NCBI RefSeq assembly: GCF_000737515.1 | Contig: NZ_CP006587.1 | Span: 1 to 64,000 of the forward strand | Reading direction: 5' to 3' | Source: Hymenobacter sp. APR13 | GTDB taxonomy: Bacteria; Bacteroidota; Bacteroidia; Cytophagales; Hymenobacteraceae | Length of the DNA: 64,000 nt | In this document: piece by piece, positions 21,084-38,243 of the stretch | Layout of the letters: every line of letters starts with the position of its first letter | Position numbering within the stretch: position 1 is the first letter of the stretch | The notes under the pieces: generated by a model | What the model saw: only the letters and a program-made list of their open reading frames with translations | What the model was told of the DNA's origin: nothing | Databases searched by the model: none | Program-made: the position numbers and the translations under genes

Positions 21084-21473
21084 ATGGTAAAGAAAAAGAA
21101 AGATGCGCACTACTTAAAGAATACCGATTTACTAGCTGAAATTGTAGCATGTAAGAAAACGGGTGTTTTATCTAATAAGGCTGCTAACATGTTTATACTG
21201 TTAGCCAACAAAACCATCAAAAAAATGCGTTACAGCAATCCTGATGATAGGGATGATTGCTACCAGACCGGGATAATGCAGATGCTGTTGAACTGGCATC
21301 ACTTTGATGAAACCAAAAGCACCAACAGCTTCAGCTACTTCACCGAGATTTTCAAACGGGGGATTGCTAAAGGTTATGGGGAGCTATTCTACCACAAAGG
21401 GGATAAGGAACGTACCACGCGTACCATTAGCCTTAGCTCCGGTAATGACGGGGAAAGTTTATTCAACCTGTAA
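21084..21473 (+). CDS. T4 gp55-like sigma factor for late transcription
   Basis: A 129-residue protein resembling sigma region 2 in the compact form seen in phage late sigma factors of the T4 gp55 type: NPDDRDDCYQTGI (52-64), NWHHFDETKSTNSF (70-83) and YFTEIFKRGIAKGYGELF (85-102). It lacks regions 3 and 4, so it should recognise a -10-type element only. It is the last gene of the early operon and runs into the convergent late operon with 1 nt between stops. The AT-rich late boxes found in this prophage are its likely targets. Sigma region 2 similarity is strong by eye; the gp55 assignment is less certain. Confidence 0.72.
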   Translation: MVKKKKDAHYLKNTDLLAEIVACKKTGVLSNKAANMFILLANKTIKKMRYSNPDDRDDCYQTGIMQMLLNWHHFDETKSTNSFSYFTEIFKRGIAKGYGELFYHKGDKERTTRTISLSSGNDGESLFNL

Positions 21474-21474
21474 G

Positions 21475-21906
21475 CTACTTGTAAAACAAAGCGCTTTCAC
21501 GTTGCCGACGCTTCAACAGAATAGGCTTACCACCGGCATTTCGCCACATACAGAAGCATTCTGTGATCCGCTCTACATCATCCTTATTCCCCGCGTTGAT
21601 TTCGCGTAGCAGGCTGGATTTAGCGAACCCGTTGATCCCGATGTTGAAAGCCAACGATACTAACGCGTTGGTTTGATTCTGTGTCAGCTCTACAGTAACC
21701 AGTGTAGCAACAGCCTCTTCAAAGCGCTTCAGGTCGTGTGTTAGTAGCGCTTCAGCCTGTTGCATGGTAATCTTCACTCCTGGCTTCACATGCCTACCTG
21801 TGCTGCCGGCTCCTATAGTCCACACACCAGCCGCACACTTGTACGCTTTCAGTACTACGCCTTCCTCACGTATCAGGAAGTCCCTACCAACCTTATCTAC
21901 TTTCAT
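21475..21906 (-). CDS. Endolysin, GH24 phage lysozyme
   Basis: A 143-residue muramidase that cuts peptidoglycan at lysis. The catalytic Glu lies in FLIREEG (about 10-16), followed by AYKCAAGVWTIGAGST. The usual Asp of the E-D-T triad is replaced by Cys, as in a known subset of lambdoid endolysins. The C-terminal part (ALVSLAFNIGINGFAKSSLLREIN, then CMWRNAGGKPILLKRRQRE) is typical. I choose the ATG at 21906, which overlaps the upstream spanin stop as ATGA; an upstream GTG-type extension inside the spanin gene is unlikely. There is no signal peptide, so holin-dependent release is expected. Confidence 0.88.
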   Translation of the reverse strand: MKVDKVGRDFLIREEGVVLKAYKCAAGVWTIGAGSTGRHVKPGVKITMQQAEALLTHDLKRFEEAVATLVTVELTQNQTNALVSLAFNIGINGFAKSSLLREINAGNKDDVERITECFCMWRNAGGKPILLKRRQRESALFYK

Positions 21907-22436
21907 ATCCCTATATATTTTGTTATCACAACGTAACCAGCGGCTAGGAACGCTACTACACCTAGCAGGATGAACCACCAATTACCAGCCGTTTTCTTAC
22001 TGGTAGTTATCGTGTCACTTGCTGCATTCCCGGTACCTTGCTGTTGGCGGTTTTCCTTGCCTTTATAAGCACTTTGGTTACCCTCCCCTACGCTACCCTG
22101 GTTTCTCTCTACAGTCGCCGTAACGGCGCTATTCATGCTTCCTGTAGCAGCACCAGGTACACCAGTTCTACTGGTAGCGGATTGGTTGGTAATCGTGATC
22201 GGGCTGTTCTTCAGCTTCACCTTCTTGCCACTCAGCAACCGCTTCACCACTGCCTGTGATACACCCTGAATTTGGCTTGTATCCGCCCCTGTAGCACCCG
22301 CAACAGCCGTTGTAGTGTCTAGTGTTGCCGTTGGCGCTATTGTTCCTTGTGGAGCCTCTGGAGCCTTTCTATTGATAGTACAGTTGCTGAGTAGTAGTAG
22401 CAGGATGATAATGAAACTAGTTCGGATCTGATTCAT
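21903..22436 (-). CDS. Probable unimolecular spanin
   Basis: A 177-residue protein with an N-terminal lipoprotein signal (lipobox LSNC, Cys at about 19), a long Ala/Thr/Gln/Asn-rich periplasmic region, and a C-terminal transmembrane helix (about 153-173). Lipid at the outer membrane plus a helix in the inner membrane is the hallmark of u-spanins such as T1 gp11, which fuse the two membranes in the last step of lysis. It overlaps the endolysin gene, which supports this role. Sequence similarity to known spanins is not visible; the call rests on topology and context. Confidence 0.7.
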   Translation of the reverse strand: MNQIRTSFIIILLLLLSNCTINRKAPEAPQGTIAPTATLDTTTAVAGATGADTSQIQGVSQAVVKRLLSGKKVKLKNSPITITNQSATSRTGVPGAATGSMNSAVTATVERNQGSVGEGNQSAYKGKENRQQQGTGNAASDTITTSKKTAGNWWFILLGVVAFLAAGYVVITKYIGI

Positions 22437-22746
22437 TAATTGGTTCTATAATTTCTTCGGCTGCTGCTTCCGTATTCATGTTAACTGTAGCTTCATCAAC
22501 ATTAACGGTTGAAGGCATTTTATTTAAGTAGATAGCTAACATATAATCTGACAAGGCACTGATGCAGTAGATAAGTGTTAACGTGGTTAATTCTTCCTTA
22601 CTGAGTGGTTGCCAACTAGCTAACCTACATACAAGTGGTGATGTAACCAGCGTAATACCGCTTAGCAATGCAATACAGGTAAAGATGTTGAAGGTGCCTT
22701 TTGCGTCCTGTAGAAACTCTCTTAATCTACTCCTACCCTGTTTCAT
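22417..22746 (-). CDS. Candidate holin
   Basis: A 109-residue membrane protein with two hydrophobic helices (about 20-42 and 55-74), a basic N-terminus (MKQGRSRLREF) and an acidic C-terminal tail. It is in the lysis cassette, overlapping the spanin start by 20 nt and the upstream stop by 1 nt. Size and two-helix topology fit a class II-like holin; no family motif is recognised. Confidence 0.6.
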   Translation of the reverse strand: MKQGRSRLREFLQDAKGTFNIFTCIALLSGITLVTSPLVCRLASWQPLSKEELTTLTLIYCISALSDYMLAIYLNKMPSTVNVDEATVNMNTEAAAEEIIEPINESDPN

Positions 22747-23219
22747 TATTTAGCTTGCATTTTCATTAATATATCAAATATCTTATCAACCTTAGCACTC
22801 ATTACTTCGGCATTCTTATCTATTTTAGTTTCCAGATCATCTAGCTTACAAGATATATTATCCATTGTCTTTTCATTAACGCTGAAACGTAAATCATAAT
22901 TATCTCTAAGCCTCTCAATATCCGACACAATACCCCTAAACCTAAGTTCATGTGCATTATTTACGGTATCGTTTATATGCTTAACATCAGATATCAGGTC
23001 AAAAAATTTGGGAATGTTCTTATCCTGGCTTTTTTCTATTTCCAAAAGCCTAGCCTCAGTACGCTTCTTTTCATCATCTAACTTACTTTCCAACTCCTTA
23101 CTATTACTTTTCTTCATCGTGTATAAGAACACACCAGCAGAAATAAAGATAGGAAGCCACATTCTTGCAGCTTCTATCATTTCAATATGCGTAAATAATA
23201 AGATGGTTAAGGTTAGCAT
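22746..23219 (-). CDS. Membrane-anchored coiled-coil protein, lysis region
   Basis: A 157-residue protein with an N-terminal hydrophobic segment (about 1-35, possibly two short helices) followed by a coiled coil to the C-terminus (KELESKLDDEKKRTEARLLEIEK and later heptads). It lies between the tail fibre and the candidate holin and overlaps the latter by 1 nt. It may assist holin or anchor a periplasmic partner. GC is lower than in its neighbours. No specific family is assigned. Confidence 0.6.
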   Translation of the reverse strand: MLTLTILLFTHIEMIEAARMWLPIFISAGVFLYTMKKSNSKELESKLDDEKKRTEARLLEIEKSQDKNIPKFFDLISDVKHINDTVNNAHELRFRGIVSDIERLRDNYDLRFSVNEKTMDNISCKLDDLETKIDKNAEVMSAKVDKIFDILMKMQAK

Positions 23220-23244
23220 GATGGAAATGTAAATGATTTATAAA

Positions 23245-25623
23245 TTAATTGGGTATGATTTGAATCCAGTCTACAGTACCGACAAATCCACCTTGACCAC
23301 CTATATGTATCGTATCATTCCCACCACCAAATGTGATAGAGAATGTATGAAGTCCAGCGGTGTTCGGATATACATCAAAACCCGTATTAGTTACTAATCG
23401 CAATGGTGCGGTACCAGTAATTTCCCCTATCATAACTTTCACTACACCTGTACCGGAAGCAGTGAAATTACGTAGGTAATAGCCCATCCCACCGTTCGCA
23501 CGAATTTGATTAGGCTCTATTATCCAACCACCAATGTTACCCCACCCCCCTTGTATATTGAAGTTTGCTTCATCAGATGGGATCAGTCCATCAGGTGCGC
23601 CAGCAGCTTTTGTATAGACTGCTGTATTCCATAACACGCTACTAGCGGGATTTGCCCCTATTGACCTAGTTCTTACCCCTACACCATTTACAGGCACATC
23701 TATATTACCTACTTGTATAGGCTTCGCTGCCTGTATCCATGTAGCGCCACCATCCAATGTCTGTTGAATATCACTAAGTATATACCCACTCGGTAGTGTA
23801 TAATCAAATGTATCTAGAACATCATTTTGTATTGGATTTGTAGGAGCTGGTGTTACTGCCGGACCAGATGGGGTTGTACTACCAGATTCAATTGTTACCG
23901 TAGTTCCCGCTTCAATAGTTGCTCCGGTTGGTATAGAGCTACTCCCCTTTAGATAAACAGTACCACCACCTTTGAACAGTACGAAACCACTATTGCAGTT
24001 AAAATCACAGTCTACAAAAGTAACAACTTTACCTACTGGAATTTCAATATACACATTAGACAAGAAGCAGTTATTGTAATAAGTGCCACCTAGACCATTC
24101 ACACTCAAACCACCACTTTGTACAATTAGATTTGACACTCTACTATATTCCCTAGTGAACATCTTATAATCATTCAAACTTGTAATGAAGTTATTTCCCA
24201 CTACGTGCGTACCTGCTGCGAGAACGGCGTTCTGAGTCAAAGAAAATGGATAAAATAATAATATGTTTCCAAATATGCCTGTAAACTGAAATGCATTAGC
24301 CAAGTCACTACCTTGATACACGCTTCCACTTAATGATGTAGCATACACCTTGGGCAAAGGATTATTTCTAATATTTGTTATTTGATTCTGCAAATTTATA
24401 TCAACCGCATTAACCTCAGATATTTTATCATCAACATATGATTGTGTTACATCACCTGCTGAATTGACCTTTGCAGTTAGCTCAGCATCCAACATTACTT
24501 CTGTAATACTACCGTTGTCAATAGCTGCTGATCCATTGATCTGCAACCAGCTCACGTTAGTTGACGTGGGCGCTACAGTACTATTCTGAATATTGTTCTT
24601 CGCAATGAATACCCCTACACCGTTGCGCACGAATTGACCTTTGGTGTAGCTACCGGCTACCCAATCATTCGCAGTGCTAACAATGGCATTGATACGACTG
24701 GTGAGGCTTAGATTGGTACTGTTAAGATCACTCTCCAACCCTTCTACTGTGGTTTCTACCGCACTGATACGAGCTTTGATTACGGTATCATCATACACGT
24801 AGTAATCACCACCACCGGAACCACCACCACCGATAAACTCCCAATCCAGGTCGGCTGGTGCATCATCAGCAGCCTGATCACCAGTGGATATCAGAGAGCC
24901 GGACAGATCCCGTTTCGCTCTGATGAATTGGTTGTTATAGATTACAATGGTGTTTTTCTTATAGTCTCCCGGCAACCAGTTTTCAATTTTGGTTAGTCCG
25001 GCTGGATTCAGTTCTCTCCAATAGGGATCATTGCTGTTCCCCGATGGTGTAGGCATGAAGTAGTTCGGCAGTTGCCCACGATCCATAGCCACTTTTGCAG
25101 AGAATAAGCGGTATTCCCCGTTGATCAGGAACTTCACCGTTTGCCCCTCAGCATAGGTATCTTCAAACGGGTTGAAATCGGCAATGCTGTTTACCTTCTC
25201 TTCAATAGAATCACGCTCTACCCATTTCGCCGGTACTTTTGGCTCTGTGAAATCACCGTCTACATATACCTGTAGCGTACTACCAGCATCATATACTAGA
25301 ATATATTCCTCATTGGGAAATTCACATTTACAGGTAGTGCCTAAGCAAAGAAAATCAGGATTCAACTCAGTAAGGGTTGATGATCCTTCATACCATTGTG
25401 GTGATGCATTGGAATAACAACGCACCATCTTATAACCGGACTTCGTGTTATTTGCGCCGGGAAGGTTATTCGCTACGGTCTGAATAATGGTAGGAATAGA
25501 AACCTTAAAGTTCTGATCAGTACCAGCACTTGTTTCAACTTCAATAACCTTATCCAGCAATTGATTCTGCTGTGTGATACTATTTAAATCTTTGATCCTT
25601 GTTTTCTCTACTCCGATTGGCAT
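23245..25623 (-). CDS. Tail fibre / receptor-binding protein with glycan-binding-like modules
   Basis: A 792-residue late protein. The N-terminal ~110 residues probably attach to the tail. Three modules of the form G-x-x-(V/I)-x-x-x-N-x-x-(F/Y)-x-AK...W follow at about 153-212, 213-265 and 316-363, resembling chitin-binding (CBM5/12-like) domains. A coiled coil (ISAVETTVEGLESDL) lies between the second and third. Next come a beta-helix-like region (about 430-590), a Pro/Thr-rich linker and a C-terminal beta-sandwich-like domain. It probably binds host surface polysaccharide. Its start lies 22 nt after a late promoter box. Confidence 0.75.
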   Translation of the reverse strand: MPIGVEKTRIKDLNSITQQNQLLDKVIEVETSAGTDQNFKVSIPTIIQTVANNLPGANNTKSGYKMVRCYSNASPQWYEGSSTLTELNPDFLCLGTTCKCEFPNEEYILVYDAGSTLQVYVDGDFTEPKVPAKWVERDSIEEKVNSIADFNPFEDTYAEGQTVKFLINGEYRLFSAKVAMDRGQLPNYFMPTPSGNSNDPYWRELNPAGLTKIENWLPGDYKKNTIVIYNNQFIRAKRDLSGSLISTGDQAADDAPADLDWEFIGGGGSGGGDYYVYDDTVIKARISAVETTVEGLESDLNSTNLSLTSRINAIVSTANDWVAGSYTKGQFVRNGVGVFIAKNNIQNSTVAPTSTNVSWLQINGSAAIDNGSITEVMLDAELTAKVNSAGDVTQSYVDDKISEVNAVDINLQNQITNIRNNPLPKVYATSLSGSVYQGSDLANAFQFTGIFGNILLFYPFSLTQNAVLAAGTHVVGNNFITSLNDYKMFTREYSRVSNLIVQSGGLSVNGLGGTYYNNCFLSNVYIEIPVGKVVTFVDCDFNCNSGFVLFKGGGTVYLKGSSSIPTGATIEAGTTVTIESGSTTPSGPAVTPAPTNPIQNDVLDTFDYTLPSGYILSDIQQTLDGGATWIQAAKPIQVGNIDVPVNGVGVRTRSIGANPASSVLWNTAVYTKAAGAPDGLIPSDEANFNIQGGWGNIGGWIIEPNQIRANGGMGYYLRNFTASGTGVVKVMIGEITGTAPLRLVTNTGFDVYPNTAGLHTFSITFGGGNDTIHIGGQGGFVGTVDWIQIIPN

Positions 25624-25644
25624 ATAGTGTTATGATATTATAAC

Positions 25645-25653
25645 CTATATATC
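25645..25653 (-). promoter_or_regulatory. Late promoter box, fibre-lysis unit
   Basis: GATATATAGG followed by TTATAATATC on the minus strand, about 22 nt before the fibre ATG. It lies inside the 34-bp gap between the fibre gene and a divergent accessory gene. Confidence 0.6.
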
Positions 25654-25657
25654 CTTA

Positions 25658-26308
25658 ATGCGAAATAGAAACATCACTGATTATACACGCCTAAAAAAAT
25701 TAACATATAATGAATTAACAATCAATGACATACTTGTTTTAACCTATCACAGAATCGGTAAGCATGACGGTATAACAAGAAAAAACCTCATCTTAAACTT
25801 TACATTGACACTGGACTCACACCCCCATTCAATTCCCCTTCACATGTCTGAAATCATTTTTTACGCATTAAATAAGGATATAGAGGTTAGCAAGTATACT
25901 TCGCTGGATTTTGCCAAAAAGACTAAACCTGAGTGGATTATTCAAGAAAGCACTTCTGTTGAGATCAATGGCAATTACAAGAACATCATGCTTGACTATA
26001 TTTTTTACAATGCAAATGGCGTAGTCGTAAATGAAATAACAGATGGAAGATGGAAGTTGATTAAACTCATATGCTATAGAAATGAGTTTTTTCAAAAAGT
26101 TGTGATAAGCTGCAAGGCGGTTGACCCTAATGGCAGAATTTGCGGAGTAGAATTGAATAACACAGGTATAGAAGGTGTAATTCAAGCTTTCAAAAAACTG
26201 AGAAAGTTCTCCAAGTTTGAAAACCTAGAGAACCTACTACTTTCAAATGAAAACGAGAAGCTTAAGAAAGAAATAGAAAAGCTTAAGATTAAATTAGGAA
26301 TCAAATAA
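25658..26308 (+). CDS. Accessory gene (moron) in the tail module, unknown
   Basis: A 216-residue low-GC protein on the strand opposite to all its neighbours, inserted between the tail tip and fibre genes. Orientation, base composition and compact fit (34 nt and 9 nt to its neighbours) mark it as an accessory insertion. It is predicted mostly beta in the middle (NIMLDYIFYNANGVVVNE, KVVISCKAVDPNGRI), with a C-terminal coiled coil (ENEKLKKEIEKLKIKLG). I do not recognise the family. Confidence 0.7.
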   Translation: MRNRNITDYTRLKKLTYNELTINDILVLTYHRIGKHDGITRKNLILNFTLTLDSHPHSIPLHMSEIIFYALNKDIEVSKYTSLDFAKKTKPEWIIQESTSVEINGNYKNIMLDYIFYNANGVVVNEITDGRWKLIKLICYRNEFFQKVVISCKAVDPNGRICGVELNNTGIEGVIQAFKKLRKFSKFENLENLLLSNENEKLKKEIEKLKIKLGIK

Positions 26309-26317
26309 CTTCAACTA

Positions 26318-29300
26318 TTACACTTCCCCTCTCTCGGATATTCTAAATAATTCATCACCATTACTCTTCACTATACGATAAGTAACCCGACCGTTTTTAG
26401 TAGCTATTCTTACTTTGTTGGGTAGATCAGGTTCCACACCACCGAAACTACCATCCGCTAAACGCTGGCAGCTAATTTTAGCTATTCCTTTCCGTTCGTT
26501 TTTAAAGCAGGAAACGATCAGGAATCTACCATCGGTATCCTGTGGCATATCCAACATCATCCCTACTCGCAGTGCTGAGAAGCCCGGTCCGGCAACTTCA
26601 CCTGATACTACAGCTACTGGTGAAGCTCTGAGTGATAATCTATCCTGCGCTGCATTATCCAACAACGCGGTATAGGAAGGGTAGCTAGGACGTTTCCACC
26701 CTGTAGTAGCCGTGAAGTCAGCTAGGCTGATAGCGTGTCTCCATGCGTACACATCCATCTTCACAGGTGGTAACGGATTGCCCGTTGCTGATGGTAGCAA
26801 GGGTAGATCAGCATGTACCAGTTCCACCGGCTTTAGCTCAAGATTGGTGGTTACCGGATTGGTAGCATAGAAGTAATCAGTTGTTTGCTCACTCCAATCA
26901 ACCGCCCCTGGTTGAATGCTTAGCGCTACATGGTTGAAACGCACTTGAGCCGGACTACTGCCCACTATAACCGGCTCCAACAGCTTCACCCGCACCTTTG
27001 CCCCTGGCATACCCAATGATAGGTTAACCGTGTAGGTTTTCCACTTGTCTTTGCTGTTCATTTCAACGGCTAGGTTCTGTCCGAACGGAACACCATCACA
27101 GAGAATCTGGAAATACTGTGTTACTAGGATATCGGCTGGATTCGCTGTTAGAGGGTCTACAATGGCTCTAAACTCTAATTGCATTGCATCTTCATCCTGT
27201 CCGGTTAAGTGCGGTACAGGTGGTGATAAGAGGAAATTAGCGGTGCTGGTAGCCGTTACGGGTACTACTCTAACTGCAAACTCTTTTGCCTTCTCCCCCT
27301 TTGCGCGGCTGCTGACAATACTTCCTTCCTTGCTCCAATACAACGGGCGCGAGTTATCAGAACTCCATTCCACAAAGTCACCATTGCGGAATAGGTTGCT
27401 TTCTAGCTGTAGCTCAACTACTGCCTTCACACTGTCGGCGGCGGCTACAGTGGTTCTATTCTGTACAGCGTTAATCCAGAACACTTCATTGCTAGCTGTT
27501 GCAAAGCGGCTTTCCAGTACGCGTAAGGTCGGCGCGGTTGAATCTTCACTTACCAGCAACGTACCGGCTGGTGAGAAGGTACGCGTAGCAAAGCTGGTGT
27601 AGACTTCATTCAAGCTGATGATTCTCCAATACCCATCTGATTGAAATAAGAAGGCATTGAAACAGCGTAGGATGTTATCTAATACAGTGCGGGCATCAAC
27701 AATATCTTCATCCGTTATAACCTTACCATCTTTCTTATTGGAAGCGTTACGGTGTACATAGGCTTCTGCTAGTGGATCACCTGTAGCACTCATCAACCGA
27801 TCACGTAGGTTGATCCCTACCATAAGCGGTAAGTTCACGTCACAATAGCTCAGACACTTCAGAATGATGGATAACATGGAAGTTCTGCCTTCCTGACGTT
27901 CGCGTAAGTGATTGATGAATTTGGTACTCTTCAGTTTGCCTAATCCATCCGTTGCCAGTATCGTTACCTTCTGTCCAGCTCCTAGCATTCGCTCAGAGTA
28001 GGTAGTAGCATCAATGTAGCCGCGAAACTGTAGCACACCCGCTCTGTAGTAATCAACCCGATGGTTACGATCATCCGCTAGCACCGTATCTACAAACTGT
28101 TGGGCAACGCTGGTGTACACGTTAAATTCAAGGTTGGCACCGACGGATTCCGGCAAGTATCCAGCCGGATCACCACCCGTATCCCAACTCAGGATAACGG
28201 GTTCATCCGTACCACACACATTGGTAACCGGACCGTTCCAATCACGCTGGTAAATGCGTAGTTCGGTAGCTACACTACTACGATCATCAAAGCTGAGTTT
28301 CCAGCGTTCTCTATAGCGGTTTTCAATTCTAAATTCAGCCGTTACATACCGATCATTCGCGTCATAAATATCAACGATATAATCACCAGCATATAGATTT
28401 TCAAAAATACCCGTTTCATTATCTTGAATATAACCGGCTCTAACACCGGCTCTCATATGATAACGGATAGGCATAGAGGGACTAATAGCATTAATCCACA
28501 CGCTACCGTTTTCAGATGATTGATCATCAACATCTGTTTTAATAATATCTACTACTCTCAAATCACCTAATGCAGCTTCAATAACAGGTGTGGTATCATC
28601 AAAGATGATCCGATCACTATCATTCGGAATGGTAGGATTCGCTATATGGAAGCGTACACGTCGGTTGATGGTACCAATCTGATACTGATCAATTACTTCT
28701 GCTTCAGGAATAGCATAATAGAAATACCCGTAACCAGCTACCTTTTCCCAATACTGGTTATCAGCACCGATGGTAGGCGCTGGAATCAACCCGTTCGGGA
28801 AGTTATTGGACTGAAGTTTCATCTTAGCCTTATAGAATCCATTCCAATCATAGCGCATTACATCCCCGGCATTATAGTACCAGTAGCCGCCGGAAATCGG
28901 GGCTGGTGAGCTATAGAAGGGAGAAAAGTTCTGTGGTGGATTTGGGTAAGGTTCTCTACTTGCCGTTACAAAAAACTTCACATAGCCTACTTGATCCTGT
29001 GGACCATGCGTTAGCTGCTCCCAAAAGCCCTGGGCTACCCCGTTTGCGTCGGGATAGGGTCTTTTGGTGTCACTGGTACCGATCATATCCACTTTAGCGC
29101 GGTAATACTGTCTAGCGCTATCCCCGTTGCGGATGTAGCTCACAATACTTCCTGTCAAGTACTGTGGTGTGTACTGGTAGAAGTCAGCATAGGTGAGGTT
29201 GATCGGATTCACCGTAATCACCTGCTTCGTTGTCTTATCCCATGCTAAGCCTTGAATCTGTCCGATGTTGCGCCCGTTGTAGATGTATTCATACTTCAAC

Positions 29301-29890
29301 CAATCATAAACCGGCACACCAGTACCACCGGCACCAGGAGCCGCCCCCCTACCTACTACTAGGGTTGGGGTATTGAGTCTACAGTTACCAAAATCAATTA
29401 GCTGAGCTACGTAGCTACCGGCTGGCACATTCTCGTAGCGAAACTGTGTGATACCGGATGCAGCTTGTGTAGTGCTGGTAGGGATACCTAGATTGGTGAT
29501 GTAGCAGCTAATAGGGGTTTTAGAGCTATCCGCTTCAATGAAGATCATCCCATCCGTACTGGTGTTGGTGGTGGTGTTAGCAGTACCCGTATAATTCAAG
29601 TACAGATCACATTGTCCAGCACAGGTGATATCCGCTAGATCATCCCAACGATACGTTCCAGGTATACTATCCGCTTTCACTACGCGCATGTTACCAAAGG
29701 CACAATAGCGTTCTAATTCGGTATTGTTGGCTATCTGATAAGGTGAGCATGTAAAGGTTGTAGCGGTAACTGAAATAGTAGCCGGATACGTACCTGCTTC
29801 ACGTGAAGCAGTATCATAAAACACTTCGGTTTGTTGTGAGCTGTTATCAGGGTTTAATACACAGTATCTTTGTAGTAATATTCTAGGCAT
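26318..29890 (-). CDS. Central tail tip / tail hub protein
   Basis: A 1190-residue protein directly after the tape measure gene, the usual place of the distal tail/tip protein that closes the tail tube. Two modules at about 240-295 (GSIVSYIRNGDSARQYYRAKV...FWEQL) and 335-385 (AGDVMRYDWNGFYKAKM...YWEKV) belong to the same glycan-binding-like type as those of the fibre. The centre (about 545-780) contains GxLxFRGYIDATTYSERM and ILRCFNAFLFQSDGYWRI, reminiscent of baseplate hub proteins. The C-terminal ~150 residues are beta-rich. A late box and a terminator lie upstream. Confidence 0.75.
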   Translation of the reverse strand: MPRILLQRYCVLNPDNSSQQTEVFYDTASREAGTYPATISVTATTFTCSPYQIANNTELERYCAFGNMRVVKADSIPGTYRWDDLADITCAGQCDLYLNYTGTANTTTNTSTDGMIFIEADSSKTPISCYITNLGIPTSTTQAASGITQFRYENVPAGSYVAQLIDFGNCRLNTPTLVVGRGAAPGAGGTGVPVYDWLKYEYIYNGRNIGQIQGLAWDKTTKQVITVNPINLTYADFYQYTPQYLTGSIVSYIRNGDSARQYYRAKVDMIGTSDTKRPYPDANGVAQGFWEQLTHGPQDQVGYVKFFVTASREPYPNPPQNFSPFYSSPAPISGGYWYYNAGDVMRYDWNGFYKAKMKLQSNNFPNGLIPAPTIGADNQYWEKVAGYGYFYYAIPEAEVIDQYQIGTINRRVRFHIANPTIPNDSDRIIFDDTTPVIEAALGDLRVVDIIKTDVDDQSSENGSVWINAISPSMPIRYHMRAGVRAGYIQDNETGIFENLYAGDYIVDIYDANDRYVTAEFRIENRYRERWKLSFDDRSSVATELRIYQRDWNGPVTNVCGTDEPVILSWDTGGDPAGYLPESVGANLEFNVYTSVAQQFVDTVLADDRNHRVDYYRAGVLQFRGYIDATTYSERMLGAGQKVTILATDGLGKLKSTKFINHLRERQEGRTSMLSIILKCLSYCDVNLPLMVGINLRDRLMSATGDPLAEAYVHRNASNKKDGKVITDEDIVDARTVLDNILRCFNAFLFQSDGYWRIISLNEVYTSFATRTFSPAGTLLVSEDSTAPTLRVLESRFATASNEVFWINAVQNRTTVAAADSVKAVVELQLESNLFRNGDFVEWSSDNSRPLYWSKEGSIVSSRAKGEKAKEFAVRVVPVTATSTANFLLSPPVPHLTGQDEDAMQLEFRAIVDPLTANPADILVTQYFQILCDGVPFGQNLAVEMNSKDKWKTYTVNLSLGMPGAKVRVKLLEPVIVGSSPAQVRFNHVALSIQPGAVDWSEQTTDYFYATNPVTTNLELKPVELVHADLPLLPSATGNPLPPVKMDVYAWRHAISLADFTATTGWKRPSYPSYTALLDNAAQDRLSLRASPVAVVSGEVAGPGFSALRVGMMLDMPQDTDGRFLIVSCFKNERKGIAKISCQRLADGSFGGVEPDLPNKVRIATKNGRVTYRIVKSNGDELFRISERGEV

Positions 29891-29909: not shown

Positions 29910-29918
29910 CTATATATC
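29910..29918 (-). promoter_or_regulatory. Late promoter box, tail tip unit
   Basis: GATATATAGG followed by CTATAAACGAA on the minus strand, about 20 nt before the ATG at 29890 and directly downstream of the terminator at 29939-29967. Confidence 0.6.
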
Positions 29919-29938: not shown

Positions 29939-29967
29939 AAAGGCTCCGTACTTAATACAGAGCCTTT
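29939..29967 (-). terminator. Terminator after the tape measure gene
   Basis: AAAGGCTC pairs with GAGCCTTT; on the minus strand a T-rich tract follows. It lies 7 nt after the tape measure stop and before the next late promoter box. Confidence 0.75.
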
Positions 29968-29973
29968 CACCGT

Positions 29974-32900: not shown

Positions 32901-33054
32901 GCAGTAAGGGAGCTGTTATGAAAGTGGATAGCGCGGTACCGGATTGCTTCGCGTAATCAGTTAATCTACCTAAGCCTTTTTCCGCTTGTTTTATTCCATA
33001 TTCAAATTCATCAATCTTACAATCAATGACTACCCGTAAATTTTCTAATTCCAC
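29974..33054 (-). CDS. Tail tape measure protein
   Basis: A 1026-residue tape measure protein that sets tail length. The N-terminal domain (about 70-230) has the recognisable tape-measure motif block (ALQGATALQAAGFAAEESRKILLSF..., DLNQLKQALPQVGEVLQKAFGT). Hydrophobic segments follow (about 265-330), then long coiled coils (about 340-800) and a Gly/Ala-rich hydrophobic C-terminal part (about 880-970). Assuming about 1.5 A per residue, the tail would be roughly 150 nm. It follows the tail chaperone frameshift pair, the standard siphovirus order. Confidence 0.92.
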   Translation of the reverse strand: MELENLRVVIDCKIDEFEYGIKQAEKGLGRLTDYAKQSGTALSTFITAPLLLLGGAAIKTGADMQALEMGFRAVYKGSKDVGEELKKTLEIAKLPGLGLKEALQGATALQAAGFAAEESRKILLSFGNALATVGKGKAELDRVTLALTQINNTSNVMGQDLNQLKQALPQVGEVLQKAFGTTSAEGLRQLGITSKEFIATLTSEFGKLPQVTSGLKNTLENLSDTGVLALSKLGNTANKVLDLEAVAGRLGAKLEELATAFENLDPVTQKAIFVVAGLAAAAGPLLLALGAVGSAVSVVSTGLAVLGGPITLAIAGVAALAAGIAYLAATSGDSANEFKLQREQLNGVNAAAESLLKQYEALKSKTNKTKEEQAELNKVMERLNETVPGAADSWDSYGNILTINSARVRAFTEDNKALLKTVNAAEIAETRKKLSEAAEVYRNFYDQRKQIEKQGFVAVATLGDASGQGGELIKYGKNTKEYSDFIKRAGAAHEAVRGLTLQLNNLTGVQNANTGATKAAGAADDADTSKKKAKITTLKQLQDALKKALEVRFNEKDASKFAAEDAVIESLREQIKQFKQVGSAGSKAADDIKQAYDTLAKSLSKINADVKIKPKFEYDAAGERAKAFEAFRDSFIDAGGNQNNKSFIAAGVSYKTNIELSKQYQEELKKQKDAENLKTKQADFLKDIADNLERTNQEYAVLGSRYDILRERGSLLESGIKKATELFGLQSDEVTNLTNQLKANNAEVDRRKDVEVRYDVKLSGPVGVPDPVIKTTSATGEDLSAGTREQAKALREAATAYAEAKVEGEAYGVSLDTVSRQAENAYQRLSILKAEGVSPLSEAFIQAQADFDNAQFGVKAQQGLADMNSAIESGLATAAGNMSAGIANVISGAAPISSLGGILLGAVGDILIQLGKLAITTGVTVKAIKSAFTNPFTAVAAGVAAIALGTLVKGAATSILSGGGSSGTGAVANVGSSVGSGAGNVSAQQKQNLTLEVKFQPVELRADGPTLRSSMSVDEYRLGTKR

Positions 33055-33070
33055 TATTCATAACTTATTT

Positions 33071-33400
33071 TTATAACAACCCGCGTTCCTTCATACTATT
33101 CCAATAGGCAGTATCCGCTTCATAAGAAGATGCTGTATCATTAGCTAGATCATCTAACAATTGAAAAATCTTTGATTCCGGTATAAACTTATCGGCTACT
33201 AGATTTACCATTTGCCAGCAGATACGACGGGTACGCTTCCATTCGTTTAATTCACGTACTCTATGCCCATACCTAGCGTATTCGTATTCTTGCCATGTTA
33301 AATTCCAGAAATCTTCGGGTAACATTCCTAACTCACCTAATGCAAAACATTCTATATCACTAAACACTGTTACATCTTCTATTTCAACATGTTCTGACAC
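33071..33400 (-). CDS. Tail assembly chaperone, T-like part (made by -1 frameshift)
   Basis: This frame is called as 109 residues from a GTG, but it is open upstream to the slippery GGGAAAC at 33439-33445 inside the preceding gene. It is therefore best read as the C-terminal extension of a 254-residue fusion joined after MQKRMGN by a -1 shift (continuing RRRVTFPAEAIQDVSEHV). It resembles the T part of lambda gpG/gpGT-type chaperones (ELGMLPEDFWNLTWQEYEYA). The fusion bridges tail tube subunits and the tape measure. Free expression from the GTG is less likely. Confidence 0.72.
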   Translation of the reverse strand: MSEHVEIEDVTVFSDIECFALGELGMLPEDFWNLTWQEYEYARYGHRVRELNEWKRTRRICWQMVNLVADKFIPESKIFQLLDDLANDTASSYEADTAYWNSMKERGLL

Positions 33401-33426
33401 ATCCTGTATTGCTTCAGCGGGGAATG

Positions 33427-33834
33427 TTACCCTACGGCGTTTCCCATTCGTTTCTGCATACAGTCTAGCAATACCGTTAGCGGTTGAATCAAATCCTGTT
33501 TCATTTCATCCGTACCAGATTCATTTACATATTCCACCCAATCAATCACATCATCCATCGTTAATTGCACCTCCATTCGCTTCAACTTCGTACCAGCGTA
33601 GATACCACTGTAAATAAGCGCTACCAATGTGCGCAAATATGTTAGTTCATCGGGCTGCTGAAGTTTCGCTAGTTCGTGCATCAACTTGTTATACTCAATA
33701 CCTAGAATATCACAGAACGCGTTGGTTTGGCGTGTACCATCCATGTGAAATGGTAGCTTCTGCACCGTTAGCTTACCGTTGGCATCCCATGTACCAATAT
33801 CCATAGTACCGAATCCTTTTCTTTCGTTGATCAT
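33427..33834 (-). CDS. Tail assembly chaperone, G-like part
   Basis: A 135-residue helical protein between the tail tube and tape measure genes, with the segment order of G-type tail chaperones (LRTLVALIYSGIYAGTKLK, then a D-V-I-D-W-V helix). It ends MQKRMGNAVG. The slippery heptamer overlaps codons GGA AAC just before its stop, so most ribosomes make this short form and a fraction make the longer fusion. It is first in its late unit, 32 nt after a GATATATAC box. Confidence 0.75.
   Translation of the reverse strand: MINERKGFGTMDIGTWDANGKLTVQKLPFHMDGTRQTNAFCDILGIEYNKLMHELAKLQQPDELTYLRTLVALIYSGIYAGTKLKRMEVQLTMDDVIDWVEYVNESGTDEMKQDLIQPLTVLLDCMQKRMGNAVG
33439..33445 (-). other. Programmed -1 frameshift heptamer
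   Basis: On the minus strand the in-frame reading is AT[G GGA AAC] GCC, a canonical X-XXY-YYZ slippery site differing from lambda's G-GGA-AAG by one base. A -1 shift leads into the 33071-33400 frame with no intervening stop. Confidence 0.8.
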
Positions 33835-33865
33835 TTAATAGGGGTTTGTTTTTGTTATCGTTACC

Positions 33866-33874
33866 GTATATATC
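33866..33874 (-). promoter_or_regulatory. Late promoter box, tail chaperone unit
   Basis: GATATATACGG on the minus strand, 32 nt before the ATG at 33834 and directly after a terminator stem. Confidence 0.55.
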
Positions 33875-33880
33875 AAAAAA

Positions 33881-33908
33881 AGAGGGAATGAAATGAATCA
33901 TCCCCTCT
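33881..33908 (-). terminator. Terminator after the tail tube gene
   Basis: On the minus strand AGAGGGGA pairs with TTCCCTCT (one wobble) and is followed by seven T. It separates the tail tube gene from the chaperone unit. Confidence 0.7.
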
Positions 33909-33930
33909 CCTACTCTGTGTAATCCGTTAA

Positions 33931-34350
33931 TTAAGCTGTGATTTTAACAAATTCACCGTTACCAGTAAAGTTTGCATTCCACGTTACATTACCCTTATCA
34001 GGTTGCGAATACTTAATTTCAGAAACATAGGCTTCACCCGAATAACGAGTACCACCAGTTACCACCTTACCAAATTCCAGGGTTACTGCTACACCATCAT
34101 CCAACTTATCAAATAGTTCATCAAAGCTTACCTGAGTTGCATCTTCAGCAACGGTGAAAGAACGGTACAAGGCAGCGAAGCTAGCACTCCATGATTTTTG
34201 ACCGGGGCTTACCTGTTTCCAACCACCTGAAGCAGCACAAGATGCTTCATCCATTTCACGCGACATAGTAAATTCTGCTGACTGTGCGCAACCTACTACT
34301 ACATCATCAACTTTGATTACAACATCAACTGCATTTATAATTGTTGCCAT
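33931..34350 (-). CDS. Major tail (tube) protein
   Basis: A 139-residue protein of the phage tail tube type: an N-terminal strand (VVIKVDDVVVG), the conserved AEFTMSREMDEASC segment, WSASFAALYR, and a C-terminal GEAYVSEIKYSQPDKGNVTWNANFTGNGEF typical of tail tube proteins, which stack as rings around the tape measure. Position between the tail terminator and the chaperones confirms it. It has its own late promoter, fitting its high copy number, and a terminator right after it. Confidence 0.88.
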   Translation of the reverse strand: MATIINAVDVVIKVDDVVVGCAQSAEFTMSREMDEASCAASGGWKQVSPGQKSWSASFAALYRSFTVAEDATQVSFDELFDKLDDGVAVTLEFGKVVTGGTRYSGEAYVSEIKYSQPDKGNVTWNANFTGNGEFVKITA

Positions 34351-34380
34351 TAATTCATATAATTATTTTTATTCTATAGC

Positions 34381-34389
34381 CTATATATC
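34381..34389 (-). promoter_or_regulatory. Late promoter box, tail tube unit
   Basis: GATATATAGG followed by CTATAGAATAAAAAT on the minus strand, 31 nt before the tail tube ATG. Confidence 0.6.
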
Positions 34390-34393
34390 TTCG

Positions 34394-34813
34394 TTAATAA
34401 ACTGAAAACTTCAACCGGATATAACGCAATACATCAACCGTAGTATCATTATGTTCCTGAAGCGTACTGGTTAACCCAATTTCAATAGGAGACATTTGCA
34501 AGCCATTTTCCAACACTAATCGTTTACCGGCTACACGCTGAAATATTTGATCTGATATAACATAAGCTGGTACTTCAGACACTCTGTTTACTTCATTCTC
34601 CATTGCAACCGTAACCAGTAGCGTACAATCGTATTGTTTACAGCTACCAGTACCGGTTTCAGCCTGTGTCAACTGAGAAAGCAATACGTAGTGTTTTTCT
34701 GCCTTTGGTACGCTTGTAAACACTTTCACAATAGAACTATCCACTTGTAATACAGGTGTGCTTAGAGCCGCCAGGAATGCCTTTAAAATGGATAGTTGTG
34801 GATCATGTTGCAT
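34394..34813 (-). CDS. Tail completion / terminator protein (DUF3168-like)
   Basis: A 139-residue protein with the features of DUF3168 tail terminators: N-terminal helix LSILKAFLAAL, YVLLSQLTQAETG, a central CTLLVTVAMEN strand, and a C-terminal strand RYIRLKFSVY. It caps the tail tube and joins it to the head. It follows the HK97 gp10-like gene after 3 nt, the conserved gene order. Confidence 0.8.
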   Translation of the reverse strand: MQHDPQLSILKAFLAALSTPVLQVDSSIVKVFTSVPKAEKHYVLLSQLTQAETGTGSCKQYDCTLLVTVAMENEVNRVSEVPAYVISDQIFQRVAGKRLVLENGLQMSPIEIGLTSTLQEHNDTTVDVLRYIRLKFSVY

Positions 34814-34816
34814 ACC

Positions 34817-35167
34817 TTATATCTTGAATTTTACTGCTTGCTTCAGATTCGCTAAGAATGCGGCTCTATGCTGTTGCACGGCTGGATTCAGAAACGGATA
34901 AGCGGGCATTTTACGGGTACCAAATTCTATGTACTTCGCATAAGCAGCATTCACCGTTACTTCACCTTTAAATGACCCGTCACGCTGGTAACTAATAGAG
35001 GAACGTAGTAAACCTGTATCCACTCGCACTAATTGCTTAGCGGTTGATTCTACTTCGTAACCGTAGGTATCTACTGCTATTTGCACTCGTTTAGGTGTGG
35101 AAATCAAATACGCTTGTAACTTCGTTTTTAGATTATCAGCACCTTGTAATTTTACACTTATACCCAT
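34817..35167 (-). CDS. HK97 gp10-like head-tail joining protein
   Basis: A 116-residue neck protein of the HK97 gp10 family. The motif block VRVDTGLLRSSISY (about 48-61) followed by YAKYIEFGTRKMPAYPFLNPAV is characteristic. It overlaps the previous gene by 10 nt and lies between the head closure and tail terminator proteins, as expected. Confidence 0.88.
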   Translation of the reverse strand: MGISVKLQGADNLKTKLQAYLISTPKRVQIAVDTYGYEVESTAKQLVRVDTGLLRSSISYQRDGSFKGEVTVNAAYAKYIEFGTRKMPAYPFLNPAVQQHRAAFLANLKQAVKFKI

Positions 35168-35472
35168 CCGAAAATAACTAATTCTGTTTTTCGCTCAGAG
35201 GGTACCACTGATACCACCGTAACACGTTTACCTTGCCATTCTAGTGGCGTATCACTCGTGATAGCTTCCATGTAGCGAATCGTGATACGGATAGGCTGCT
35301 TATCATTCAGTTGATTATTTAGAAACTGCTCCACCGCTTTCAATACCGTAACCTGTGCGGGTAAGGTGTAGAGAGCAATTGTATCAGTAGCCAACACCCC
35401 GCCTATACCATCATCAACAAAGGATGCTTCCTTTACTACTATCATATCCCTGAACTTACCGGCTATACTCAC
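35158..35472 (-). CDS. Head closure (head-tail adaptor) protein
   Basis: A 104-residue protein similar to SPP1 gp16-type head-tail joining proteins: AGKFRDMIVVKE at the start, a GIGG loop, RITIRYMEAITSDTPLEWQGKRVTVVSVVPSERK, and a terminal strand. It plugs the connector until the tail attaches. It lies 1 nt from the connector gene. Confidence 0.82.
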   Translation of the reverse strand: MSIAGKFRDMIVVKEASFVDDGIGGVLATDTIALYTLPAQVTVLKAVEQFLNNQLNDKQPIRITIRYMEAITSDTPLEWQGKRVTVVSVVPSERKTELVIFGWV

Positions 35473-35473
35473 T

Positions 35474-35992
35474 TTAGTTATTTAATTTATACGGGGCTAA
35501 AAGTGCCTTATATTTAATAGCTACATCATGTTGCTTAATTACCGTACTAGCACCTCTGTTATCATAGAAATCACTACCCAGCATCATAATAACTGTTTTA
35601 ATAGTAGCTGGTACATCCGTTGGTTCAACCGTAACACTATACGTTATGGTGTAGGTCGGCAACATGTTGTAATCAATCGGATAATCACGATTGTTATTAA
35701 TGGTGACACCCTTTGCATACTCCACAAAATACGTATAGGCGTTGTACACGTCATCCAAATCCGTATAGTATCCAGTTACACCAGTAACTAACGAACGTTC
35801 AACAGTGGGCACCGTATTAGCCTTAAACGTAGCTTGCTTAACCTTACTGATATAATCACGTTCGGTTTCCGCTTCTACTTTCTCTCGTGCTGTTTGCAGA
35901 AACAAACCAATCAACGTATCATCAGCATTCGTGGTAATACGTGTGTACTCTTTAAATTCTATGATACTTACTGGTTCATTATCTGAATACAT
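35474..35992 (-). CDS. Head-tail connector protein (gp6-like)
   Basis: A 172-residue helical protein of the HK97 gp6/SPP1 gp15 type. The opening SIIEFKEYTRITTNADDTLIGLFLQTAREKVEAET with two helices is typical, and the C-terminal VPATIKTVIMMLGSDFYDNRGA helix is the usual end. It docks under the portal to form the neck. Confidence 0.82.
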   Translation of the reverse strand: MYSDNEPVSIIEFKEYTRITTNADDTLIGLFLQTAREKVEAETERDYISKVKQATFKANTVPTVERSLVTGVTGYYTDLDDVYNAYTYFVEYAKGVTINNNRDYPIDYNMLPTYTITYSVTVEPTDVPATIKTVIMMLGSDFYDNRGASTVIKQHDVAIKYKALLAPYKLNN

Positions 35993-35996
35993 CGGG

Positions 35997-36230
35997 TTAC
36001 TTCACTTCTTTTTTCTTCTTGCTGATAGCTGGTTTGGTTTCGCGTTTAGCAGGATCATTAGGCAAGGTTGGGGAAACCTCCACCGCCGTAGCAGATTCAG
36101 TTTCCCCTTTCTTACTTACCAATCCAGCAGCTACTAACTGTTCCAAGTAGATTTCATCTACTGCAATTTCATCCCCTTCTTTATACCGTTGTGAACGGAA
36201 TGAGAAGGTTTGTTTCGCTGTATGTTTCAT
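35997..36230 (-). CDS. Small capsid-proximal protein
   Basis: A 77-residue protein between capsid and connector. The N-terminal half (FSFRSQRYKEGDEIAVDEIYLEQLVAAGLVSK) resembles the short helical domains often encoded right after major capsid genes, possibly a packaging or maturation accessory. The C-terminal half is Lys-rich and disordered. No firm family assignment. Confidence 0.6.
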   Translation of the reverse strand: MKHTAKQTFSFRSQRYKEGDEIAVDEIYLEQLVAAGLVSKKGETESATAVEVSPTLPNDPAKRETKPAISKKKKEVK

Positions 36231-36249
36231 GGTATCTGATTAATTTAAA

Positions 36250-37350
36250 TTAAGCAGCCATCAAAGCAGCAGTAGCCGTAGCAAACGAACCTTTCACCAA
36301 AGCAGCAGGACGAGTAATAGCCTGAAGCAAACGCTCTTCAATCAGCACGGTAACTTTGTTGGTGATGAAGTCGTCTTCGTTAGAACCCGACACTTCAACA
36401 TGCAAATCTTCTACAGAGAAGGTTTCAACAGCCAAATCCAACGCACCTACCAGGAACTCACCTTCGTTTACTGCATCAATACCAGCGATGGTAACACCAG
36501 CAATGGTTGAAGCAGAGTTAGACAAGATGTTGGGTAGCAAGTAGCGACCATCAGCATCTTTGGTTAGGTTCATCTTCGCGATATCCGTAGGATTCATGAA
36601 GATTGCGTTAGCGCGGAACATGCTCTTACGAACCTGGGTAATAGCGGCATACAAGACATCAATTACTTGCGCATTCTCTACACGTAGGCTACCAGCGTTG
36701 AAAGCAGTAGCCGCCGTGAACAAGCCTAGAGCCTCTTCACCAACACCAGTACCGTAAAGCAACTGATCATCCTCTTCCTGAAGAACCAGCTCAATACCGC
36801 GACCCTGTAGGCTGTAGGTAAAAGCAGGTGCATCCTGTACGGTTTCAGTAGACAGCTTGTAGTACAAGGCAATCTTAGCAGCGTTAGCTACTACGGGAGT
36901 CATTTTGAAGCTCACTTTAGGCTTCTTAGCACCCTCGGCAACTACAGCAGCCGAACCTTCAACAGCCGTTTCACGGTCATACTTATAGGTAGGCTTGCTT
37001 AGCTTACCAATGCGCATAAAGTCGCGAACGTGGGTAAGCTGGTTGGGAGTGTTGATAGGTGAACCAGCCGCAATAAGGGATTGTGAATCACCTACTGAGT
37101 TAGCGCGAAGCATATCAATAGGAGCTTTCACTTCTACTTTAGCATCACCCTTACGGAAGGTCTTTAGCTCACTCTTCGCTTCTAGTACATCTACTAGATT
37201 CTTCTTAGCTTCTACAGTTGAACCAGAAGCAATACGCTGCATTTCAACCGAAAGCTGATCTACGGCATCTTGTACCGGCTTAATTTGGTTTGCTACATCA
37301 TTCTTTAGTTCAATAGCAATATCTTTTGGAGACTTAACTTCATTTTCCAA
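36250..37350 (-). CDS. Major capsid protein, HK97 fold
   Basis: A 366-residue capsid protein. The first ~105 residues form a helical, charged scaffolding-like delta region (DAVDQLSVEMQRIASGSTVEAKKNL). The body (about 110-366) shows HK97-type features: VRDFMRIGKLSKPTYKYDRET, the spine segment YKLSTETVQDAPAFTYSL, EDDQLLYGTG, IFMNPTDIAKMNLTKD and the C-terminal VTVLIEERLLQAITRPAALVKGSF. The start is TTG at 37350, with a late box 28 nt upstream. The preceding protease gene would remove the delta region during maturation. Confidence 0.9.
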   Translation of the reverse strand: MENEVKSPKDIAIELKNDVANQIKPVQDAVDQLSVEMQRIASGSTVEAKKNLVDVLEAKSELKTFRKGDAKVEVKAPIDMLRANSVGDSQSLIAAGSPINTPNQLTHVRDFMRIGKLSKPTYKYDRETAVEGSAAVVAEGAKKPKVSFKMTPVVANAAKIALYYKLSTETVQDAPAFTYSLQGRGIELVLQEEDDQLLYGTGVGEEALGLFTAATAFNAGSLRVENAQVIDVLYAAITQVRKSMFRANAIFMNPTDIAKMNLTKDADGRYLLPNILSNSASTIAGVTIAGIDAVNEGEFLVGALDLAVETFSVEDLHVEVSGSNEDDFITNKVTVLIEERLLQAITRPAALVKGSFATATAALMAA

Positions 37351-37354
37351 TTTG

Positions 37355-38104
37355 TTAATAATTATTTTTATTATAACCTATATATGCCGAATAGAAATCA
37401 GCAATTTCATCCCTATCTGATTTGACTTCAACCGGCTGTTCGCTTTGCAAAGTGGATACTTCCGGCTCTGTAATTACGGTTAGTGATTGTTCCAGCATTT
37501 CAGCAATGGATGATTTAATCTGAGCAACCTGAATTACTAGCAACTCACACATTTCATCGGATAGATTACCCTGTCGTAGATGCTTTTCCAGTAGACTCAT
37601 TTTCTTTTCCAACTCATTGCTTTGTTCAGCAACGGTTAGTGATTTCAACCCTATGTTCTGTGCCTGATCATTTGATCCCCATGTCACAGAAGAATATTCA
37701 AATAGCTGTACTTCGTGGATATTACGGATACCTTTGGCTTCGTCCTTACTAGCTTTAATGGTATAGAATCCAATACTGTTCTCATTCATTACACCATCTT
37801 CTACCAGGATCATCAGGTCTTTACCTAATTGCGTTTTGCTGATCTTAGAGTTCACCAGCAATCCGTTCTGATCTTCAATAATGGATTCAGGTTTACCTAC
37901 CGGCTTATTCGTATCGTGTTGCCATAGGTGTTTCAACCGGCTCTGTGATTCGGTAATAGTTTTCTTAAACGCGCCGGGATGGATGATATCACTGTGGCTA
38001 TCCACATTACCGAAACGGGCTGCATAGAGAATGATACGGTTACCAGTAGTATCAACATCTTCTACCTGATTTAGACCAACGTTTTTAGTTTCATACAACT
38101 TCAT
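37355..38104 (-). CDS. Prohead serine protease (S78 family)
   Basis: A 249-residue maturation protease that cleaves the scaffold region of the capsid protein. Motifs: AARFGNVDSHSDIIHPGAF (about 29-47), the catalytic His in LKHLWQHD (about 60), the catalytic Ser in NENSIGF (about 110) and LFEYSSVTWGSN. The C-terminal part carries a coiled coil. The ATG at 38104 gives the natural MKLYETK start; a GTG two codons upstream is possible. The next late box overlaps its last codons. Confidence 0.85.
   Translation of the reverse strand: MKLYETKNVGLNQVEDVDTTGNRIILYAARFGNVDSHSDIIHPGAFKKTITESQSRLKHLWQHDTNKPVGKPESIIEDQNGLLVNSKISKTQLGKDLMILVEDGVMNENSIGFYTIKASKDEAKGIRNIHEVQLFEYSSVTWGSNDQAQNIGLKSLTVAEQSNELEKKMSLLEKHLRQGNLSDEMCELLVIQVAQIKSSIAEMLEQSLTVITEPEVSTLQSEQPVEVKSDRDEIADFYSAYIGYNKNNY
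37378..37386 (-). promoter_or_regulatory. Late promoter box, capsid unit
   Basis: CATATATAGG followed by TTATAATAAAAAT on the minus strand, 28 nt before the capsid TTG start. It is embedded in the 3' end of the protease gene. Confidence 0.55.
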
Positions 38105-38127
38105 TAACACTCTTAGTATTTGTTACA

Positions 38128-38136
38128 CTATATATC
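38128..38136 (-). promoter_or_regulatory. Late promoter box, protease unit
   Basis: GATATATAGTGTAACAAAT on the minus strand, 24 nt before the protease ATG and just after the terminator at 38159-38186. Confidence 0.55.
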
Positions 38137-38150
38137 TACTTCTAATGCGC

Positions 38151-38229
38151 AAAAAAAATAGCCTCTACTCGTTAAAGCAGAGGCTACCAAAAAAATAAGA
38201 TAACTACCAGACGGACACCACCCCAACTA
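38151..38229 (-). ncRNA. Candidate short late RNA
   Basis: On the minus strand a GATATATAG late box (38235-38243) is followed about 50 nt later by a strong intrinsic terminator (38159-38186). The predicted transcript is about 75-80 nt. The interval contains no ATG-initiated frame. Boundaries are inferred from the flanking signals only. Confidence 0.35.
38159..38186 (-). terminator. Terminator upstream of the head operon
   Basis: TAGCCTCT pairs with AGAGGCTA; on the minus strand it is followed by eight T. No protein-coding gene ends here, so it would end a short transcript from the box at 38235-38243. Confidence 0.7.
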
Positions 38230-38234
38230 GTACA

Positions 38235-38243
38235 CTATATATC
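38235..38243 (-). promoter_or_regulatory. Orphan late promoter box
   Basis: GATATATAG followed by TGTACTAG on the minus strand, with no gene before the next terminator. Confidence 0.45.

Follow-up and report, generated by a model that had tools for sequence, protein, structure and literature searches.

The first 64,000 nucleotides of contig NZ_CP006587.1 of Hymenobacter sp. APR13 (the window) hold a prophage of about 38 kb in which two features are of particular interest: a small gene closing an early operon, predicted to encode a gp55-like late sigma factor, and a short A/T-rich box repeated on the opposite, late strand. GC content is 0.57-0.68 at both window ends and about 0.31-0.47 from roughly 2 to 39 kb. 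Besides an integrase, the prophage encodes small and large terminase, portal, a Mu-F-like head protein, prohead protease, an HK97-type capsid protein, connectors, major tail protein, tape measure and endolysin; no tail sheath was recognised among its proteins. By this predicted gene content, the element is a temperate siphovirus.

21084..21473, plus strand: gp55-like late sigma, 129 aa, with sigma region 2 and a conserved C-terminal tail
19995..21473, plus strand: four-gene operon (144 aa, 94 aa, 100 aa and the sigma), from the list of open reading frames (ORFs)
1481..3052, plus strand: tyrosine integrase (Pfam Phage_integrase, 5.3e-9), the mark of a temperate phage

The gp55-like protein and the late box

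Sequence and modelled structure mark the 129-aa product of 21084-21473 as a homologue of gp55, as originally predicted. It matches PHROG 234, "late sigma transcription factor," at 3.7e-13, and T4 gp55 itself (7d7c_F) at 1.3e-11 when a nine-sequence profile is used, a single sequence giving only 0.056. The profile comparison proposed along with the prediction succeeded for models of gp55 type, whereas the match to Pfam Sigma70_r2 (8e-4) lies below the family cut-off. The predicted fold is that of gp55, with four helices in the model and five in gp55. Promoter-pocket residues of T4 gp55 include N13, L54, R57, F86, H95, Y97, and T99 (PMC7892883); in the alignment N13, F86 (F74 here), Y97 (Y85), and T99 (T87) are kept and H95 is replaced by F, these five being the residues compared. 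The conserved C-terminal tail, ISxxSSNDGxGLxxI, also resembles a stretch of host RpoD, HVSVDAPFVQGEENRLLDVL, taken as region 3.2.

The late box is matched in the window by the pattern VATATATAS (core written NATATATA, full form NATATATA(G/C)), here mostly with G or A as first base and with G or C as last. All ten matches are inside the prophage and on the minus (late) strand; none is on the early (plus) strand, in keeping with the original observation that the early genes lack the box. Dinucleotide shuffles of 1401-39400 yield on average 3.8 matches on both strands together, reaching ten or more in 6 of 1000 cases; on the minus strand alone the mean is 1.8, and ten were reached in none of 1000. 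Eight of the ten boxes stand within 60 nt (at most 31 nt) upstream of a minus-strand start, positions that make up 4.2% of the total. This is not the distribution of a word equally frequent at random A/T-rich sites. A box had been claimed for seven leftward starts, and all seven have one, at 19-31 nt; three further boxes (10747, 21911, and 38235) had gone unnamed.

10397..10405, minus strand: late box AATATATAG, 24 nt before the small terminase gene (start 10372)
10747..10755, minus strand: late box GATATATAC, 80 nt before the 66-aa gene 10466-10666, whose homologue in the related prophage G162 (see "Readers of the box") is also boxed
21911..21919, minus strand: late box AATATATAG, with the endolysin ATG (21906) 4 nt from the box and 5 nt from its last A; leaderless class
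25645..25653, minus strand: late box GATATATAG, 21 nt before gene 23245-25623 (792 aa)
29910..29918, minus strand: late box GATATATAG, 19 nt before gene 26318-29890 (1190 aa, virion-type match); hairpin 29968-29938 just upstream
33866..33874, minus strand: late box GATATATAC, 31 nt before gene 33427-33834; hairpin 33911-33878 adjoins the box
34381..34389, minus strand: late box GATATATAG, 30 nt before the major tail protein gene (start 34350)
37378..37386, minus strand: late box CATATATAG, 27 nt before the major capsid protein gene (start 37350, TTG)
38128..38136, minus strand: late box GATATATAG, 23 nt before the prohead protease gene (start 38104); terminator-like hairpin 38188-38157 upstream
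38235..38243, minus strand: second upstream box GATATATAG, 130 nt before the protease gene, with hairpin 38188-38157 between the two boxes

Strong T-tailed hairpins directly upstream of three boxes (38128, 33866, and 29910), all among the five longest stems, suggest that late units end there and then restart; terminator-like sites in that region number 16, against 13.8 in shuffles. Where such a hairpin separates tandem boxes (38157-38243), the upstream box may yield a short RNA. The whole host genome (5.0 Mb) has 52 VATATATAS matches, 10 of them in the 38-kb prophage, the GC contents of the two differing; the 42 outside the prophage divide into 28 on the reverse and 14 on the forward strand.

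Upstream of the sigma operon, a pattern scan modelled on the Bacteroidota promoter consensus gave one candidate. The relaxed pattern has four matches in the prophage, and alone it argues only weakly for a promoter of the sigma operon.

19915..19949, plus strand: candidate promoter of host type, TTG-N24-TATCTTTG, 45 nt upstream of the operon 19995-21473

Among the remaining genes, the endolysin (ATG at 21906, minus strand) is assigned by a PHROG 7 match at 1.8e-46, and the first three proteins of the sigma operon found no confident family match in Pfam and PHROG scans. A 216-aa gene on the early strand (25658-26308, plus) sits inside the late region beside a late box and is moron-like. The 403-aa protein at 12697-13908 (plus) has no confident family match (best PHROG 0.022) and 0 matches in 50,697 phage records; it has relatives in the L015 myovirus contig described below (37%) and at a locus in genome G112 (40%). 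An Rfam scan of 1-40000 gave no match.

Sigma and box in other phages

Relatives of the sigma are found chiefly among viral contigs. A search of IMG/VR with a five-sequence sigma alignment gave 386 relatives, of which the best 80 were used. Among 84,980 prokaryote species, each represented by a single genome, two relatives turned up, one in a prophage of a member of the Fulvivirgaceae (L092) and one in Hymenobacter actinosclerus (L091); a sample of 395 genomes of the phylum added, beyond the window's own sigma, one weak partial match (3.3e-4), and the plasmids searched held no relative. Most relatives lie on other, often far larger, viral contigs, so that the pair of sigma and box is not special to temperate siphoviruses, as had been supposed. 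Nor is the box peculiar to the window phage; the system reaches well beyond it.

An unsupervised, strand-specific count of words upstream of ORFs in the sigma-carrying loci, made on a redundant locus set of 1481 windows, placed TAATATATA first among 9-mers (397 windows in sense, 94 in antisense) and AATATATA first among 8-mers, the first 7-mer being an A-rich word. Motif discovery in relatives, which the original prediction had recommended, thereby returned the box. With near-duplicates removed from the best 80 of the 386 loci, 175 of 640 starts have VATATATAV within 60 nt in sense orientation and 35 have it in antisense. Measured from the final A of the box to the ATG, again over non-redundant starts, the spacing has two peaks: 4-5 nt in 48 cases and 16-34 nt in 104, a gap of 9-15 nt being seen in 7. 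Both peaks would be expected if transcription began at a fixed point 5-6 nt past the box, the mRNA being either leaderless or provided with space for a leader. Over 168 boxes of relatives, the 8 nt before the box are T-rich and the sequence after it A-rich.

The strongest independent case for the link between sigma and box is L015, a 33.7-kb contig of 51% GC from a temperate, perhaps incomplete myovirus with integrase, sheath, terminase, and portal, whose sigma is 54% identical to that of the window. Its top 7-mer is ATATATA (9 sense, 0 antisense). It has 15 VATATATAS boxes, and for 13 of them a frame of at least 50 codons begins within the next 150 nt, in 12 cases at a distance of 18-31 nt; two of the boxed starts are GTG, and two boxes share one start. 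In L015 a box also stands 18 nt ahead of the ATG of the sigma gene (L124:11603-12021), which suggests positive feedback. The Fulvivirgaceae prophage L092 has terminase, portal, tape measure, and integrase, and three of its four boxes stand 21-23 nt before a start. The late genes of both L015 and L092 are unrelated to those of the window, yet both carry sigma and box. A gene of PHROG 38413 is boxed in L015 (L124:10732-11526, minus) and in the Fulvivirgaceae prophage (L175:2102-2905, minus) alike.

Very large phages extend the pattern. The sigma of LR756504, a 636-kb phage, is 56% identical to the window's, and in its first 400 kb the box occurs 62 times in sense and 21 in antisense, with 20 gaps of 4-5 nt and none of 10-16 nt. 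In LR756500 the box precedes 25 of 230 ORFs in sense and 1 in antisense, with a broader spacing that has no peak at 4-5 nt. The L092 sigma shares 64% identity with that of LR756504 and 46% with that of the window, which suggests transfer of the gene between small and huge phages. In Hymenobacter actinosclerus the gp55-like sigma gene (L091:10001-10339) has an internal TAG, and no box array was seen around it, the late genes there being without annotation.

More distant gp55 homologues accompany other words. In PAU, TATACATA is the top 8-mer (40 sense, 1 antisense), in Lak-B5 it is ATAAATAT (28 sense, 2 antisense), and in P-SSM2 ATAAATA ranks second (13 sense, 0 antisense). As controls served P2559Y, P2559S, phi17:1, and PJN03 (whole), together with the first 50 kb of crAss001 and phi14:2, in which the sigma profiles find nothing significant (best E 0.035, in P2559S). 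The first four have 0-1 sense matches each; within the first 50 kb, crAss001 has boxes at 4 of 41 ORFs in sense without a spacing pattern, and phi14:2 at 0 of 49. LR756511 was dropped from the sigma-free controls because it contains a distant gp55-like frame (L229 around 30570; 1.4e-7 with profile A1); in the 50 kb covered, none of its 67 ORFs is preceded by a sense box, and there is no ATATATA array.

Readers of the box

The reading favoured here, to which we give a probability of about 0.8, is that the gp55-type sigma of the prophage directs host polymerase to -10-only late promoters built on the NATATATA box. The small sigma would be expressed from the last part of the early region, would bind the host RNA polymerase core and would send it to these promoters, in which a -35 element would be dispensable, so effecting a temporal switch from early to late genes. 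The promoter itself would be the 8-nt element, with transcription beginning about 5-6 nt past its last A. Late genes would be transcribed as several leftward units, most of them boxed and some shielded by a terminator immediately ahead, and the endolysin would be translated from a leaderless mRNA. The link between sigma and box appears strong by recurrence and spacing, though it is not exclusive.

Several observations weigh against this reading. T4 gp55 contacts the beta' clamp helices through acidic residues of its helix 3, E70, D74, and E77 (PMC7892883), and only one of the three is acidic in the window sigma (E70 to D58, D74 to T62, E77 to M65); the protein is still placed in the gp55 family because of its homology and fold. 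No gp33 or clamp homologue was recognised among 17 non-structural proteins compared with PHROG (thresholds 0.01, 1, and 0.1; ORFs 15107 and 3162 outside the scan), gp33 being small and divergent. A-rich words outrank the box in LR756504, the PTm1 word ATACATA (28 to 5) comes only fifth, below A-rich words, and no clear box emerged in the word count for MA9V-1, which carries a gp55 homologue.

The weightiest of these points concern the nearest relatives of the late module, prophages in the genomes G162 and G002 with capsid identities of 58-60% and 53-55%. In G162, all five prophage boxes stand at places homologous to some of those in the window, before the protease, the major tail protein, the 1190-aa-type and 792-aa-type proteins, and the gene of 10466 type; in G002 all three do, before the major tail protein, the 1190-aa-type protein, and the small terminase, the last with a gap of 4 nt. 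Neither prophage has an equivalent of the window boxes that precede the capsid gene and gene 33427. Yet neither a sigma profile search nor PHROG 234 found a gp55-like protein in the two genomes, HMMER without filters gave a best E of 7.6 across the two, and HMM-HMM comparison of 130 of their early-region frames assigned at most 2.6% probability to a gp55-like match, the 18 control rows (10 distinct gp55-like proteins, P-SSM2 gp55 and PTm1 among them) all reaching at least 97%. The pairing of sigma and box is therefore not exclusive. For the window phage, the T4-like late switch with its own sigma, as originally proposed, is supported on the main point, among other things by recurrence of the pair in unrelated phages. 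No further close member of the late module was found in 120 genomes of the genus, nor, at 1e-60, in 390 of the order; viral contigs gave four loci with distant capsids, and G018 (capsid 41%) has no box in the 60 kb examined.

Since the box is kept without the sigma in two of the three late-module members, either another reader or a sigma from outside has to be considered. The box may be a real late promoter or activator site read by some other factor, of host or phage, with the sigma serving otherwise or as one of several readers. The intact boxes at homologous positions in G162 and G002 speak for this; the recurrence of sigma and box together in phages with unrelated late genes, as well as the different words preferred by different gp55 clades, speak against it, and we regard it as unlikely. 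A candidate for such a reader also fell away, namely a polymerase-like protein described below. Alternatively, and compatibly with transcription by a gp55-type sigma, the G162 and G002 prophages may have lost the sigma or never had it and depend on that of a co-infecting phage in trans. Boxes that persist without a sigma, and a sigma gene that seems mobile, as the L092 identities indicate, would suit such dependence. Against it, head and tail modules are present in both prophages, their common polymerase-like protein has diverged, and no observation shows dependence. This, too, seems improbable, if perhaps a shade less so. That the boxes are chance A/T-rich words can be given hardly any credence: ATATATA is common in A/T-rich phages and the two-strand shuffles do occasionally reach ten, but the one-strand shuffles never do, the boxes cluster before starts and are kept at homologous places in relatives, L015 has them at 51% GC, and the spacing is bimodal.

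The polymerase-like protein (444-507 aa) is encoded in the early regions of G162 and G002 and has diverged to 29% identity between them. Its motifs NSQP, K..F...Y, and HDS are reminiscent of A-family polymerases or of RNA polymerases of the T7 type; no usable match came from Pfam, PDB, or PHROG. As a reader of the box it was set aside, because seven other loci with the gene have 0-2 boxes and no array; G024 and G017, two of the loci with the gene, each have a single box 14-23 nt before a start. The gene occurs in 48 of 120 genus genomes and in six phage records, two of them seemingly one phage; five of the six carry a close sigma, the sixth being LR756511. The family spans 444-565 aa (L204:174-1508, minus; L207:5947-7470, minus; L091:7636-9330, minus), the six records are huge phages, and the L091 copy lies less than 1 kb from the gp55-like sigma gene there. 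A single-sequence structure model of that copy (pLDDT 36) was useless.

A broader picture can be envisioned, which we hold as tentative and rather doubtful in its entirety. A portable cassette of a 120-130-aa sigma and an 8-nt box might pass between Bacteroidota phages of 600 kb and temperate ones of 40 kb; it would work without gp33 or a phage clamp, the tail of the sigma replacing the host sigma finger (region 3.2), and often with leaderless late mRNAs, while box carriers without a sigma would borrow one from co-infecting phages or use a second reader.

Relation to known late-transcription systems

The gp55 sigma is familiar from large lytic T4-type phages, in which the T4 late promoter box is TATAAATA. 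The window sigma belongs with T4 gp55 in a family built on sigma region 2; both go with a short A/T box before late genes, and the pocket residues N13, F86, Y97, and T99 are kept. The differences lie in the carrier, here a 38-kb temperate siphovirus, in the conserved short tail found where T4 gp55 has its clamp-binding end, in the absence of a recognised gp33 or phage clamp, and in the leaderless spacing class. The box differs as well: it is NATATATA rather than the T4 sequence, and in the register given by TATAAATA it has T where gp55 meets A at -9. Residue 95 is F in the window sigma and also in P-SSM2, whose box has A at -9; a rule by which residue 95 sets the base at -9 was dropped on this account. 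Aspects of gp55 in T4-type phages are treated elsewhere (PMC7892883 and PMC2988020).

What the comparison suggests is T4-type late transcription in a variant form, probably common to temperate phages of 40 kb and phages of 600 kb. Sigma factors are reported for all jumbo phages of group 2, which includes the Prevotella LAK phages, and gp33 orthologues are reported too (PMC7824862); that survey differs in dealing with jumbo phages only, and the part of it considered here has no promoter sequence or temperate carrier. Among listed titles and abstract openings, with subscription journals and preprints largely outside, no gp55-type late sigma with its promoter was found for a temperate phage. SPO1-type sigmas use -35 and -10 elements and belong to another branch of sigma factors, which sets them apart from the window sigma. 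The likeness is that a phage-coded sigma switches host polymerase to late genes, the middle and late factors described for SPO1-type phages including gp28 and gp34 (PMC9429907).

A sigma and its promoter in small temperate phages suggest a portable switch that is open to study in a prophage. The box offers a sequence rule for late promoters, and for late gene sets, in many unannotated phages, very large genomes among them. The relatives that keep intact boxes without a sigma pose a directly testable question; and the minimal sigma, for which neither gp33 nor a phage clamp has yet been recognised, may serve as a probe of what the polymerase needs for promoter opening.

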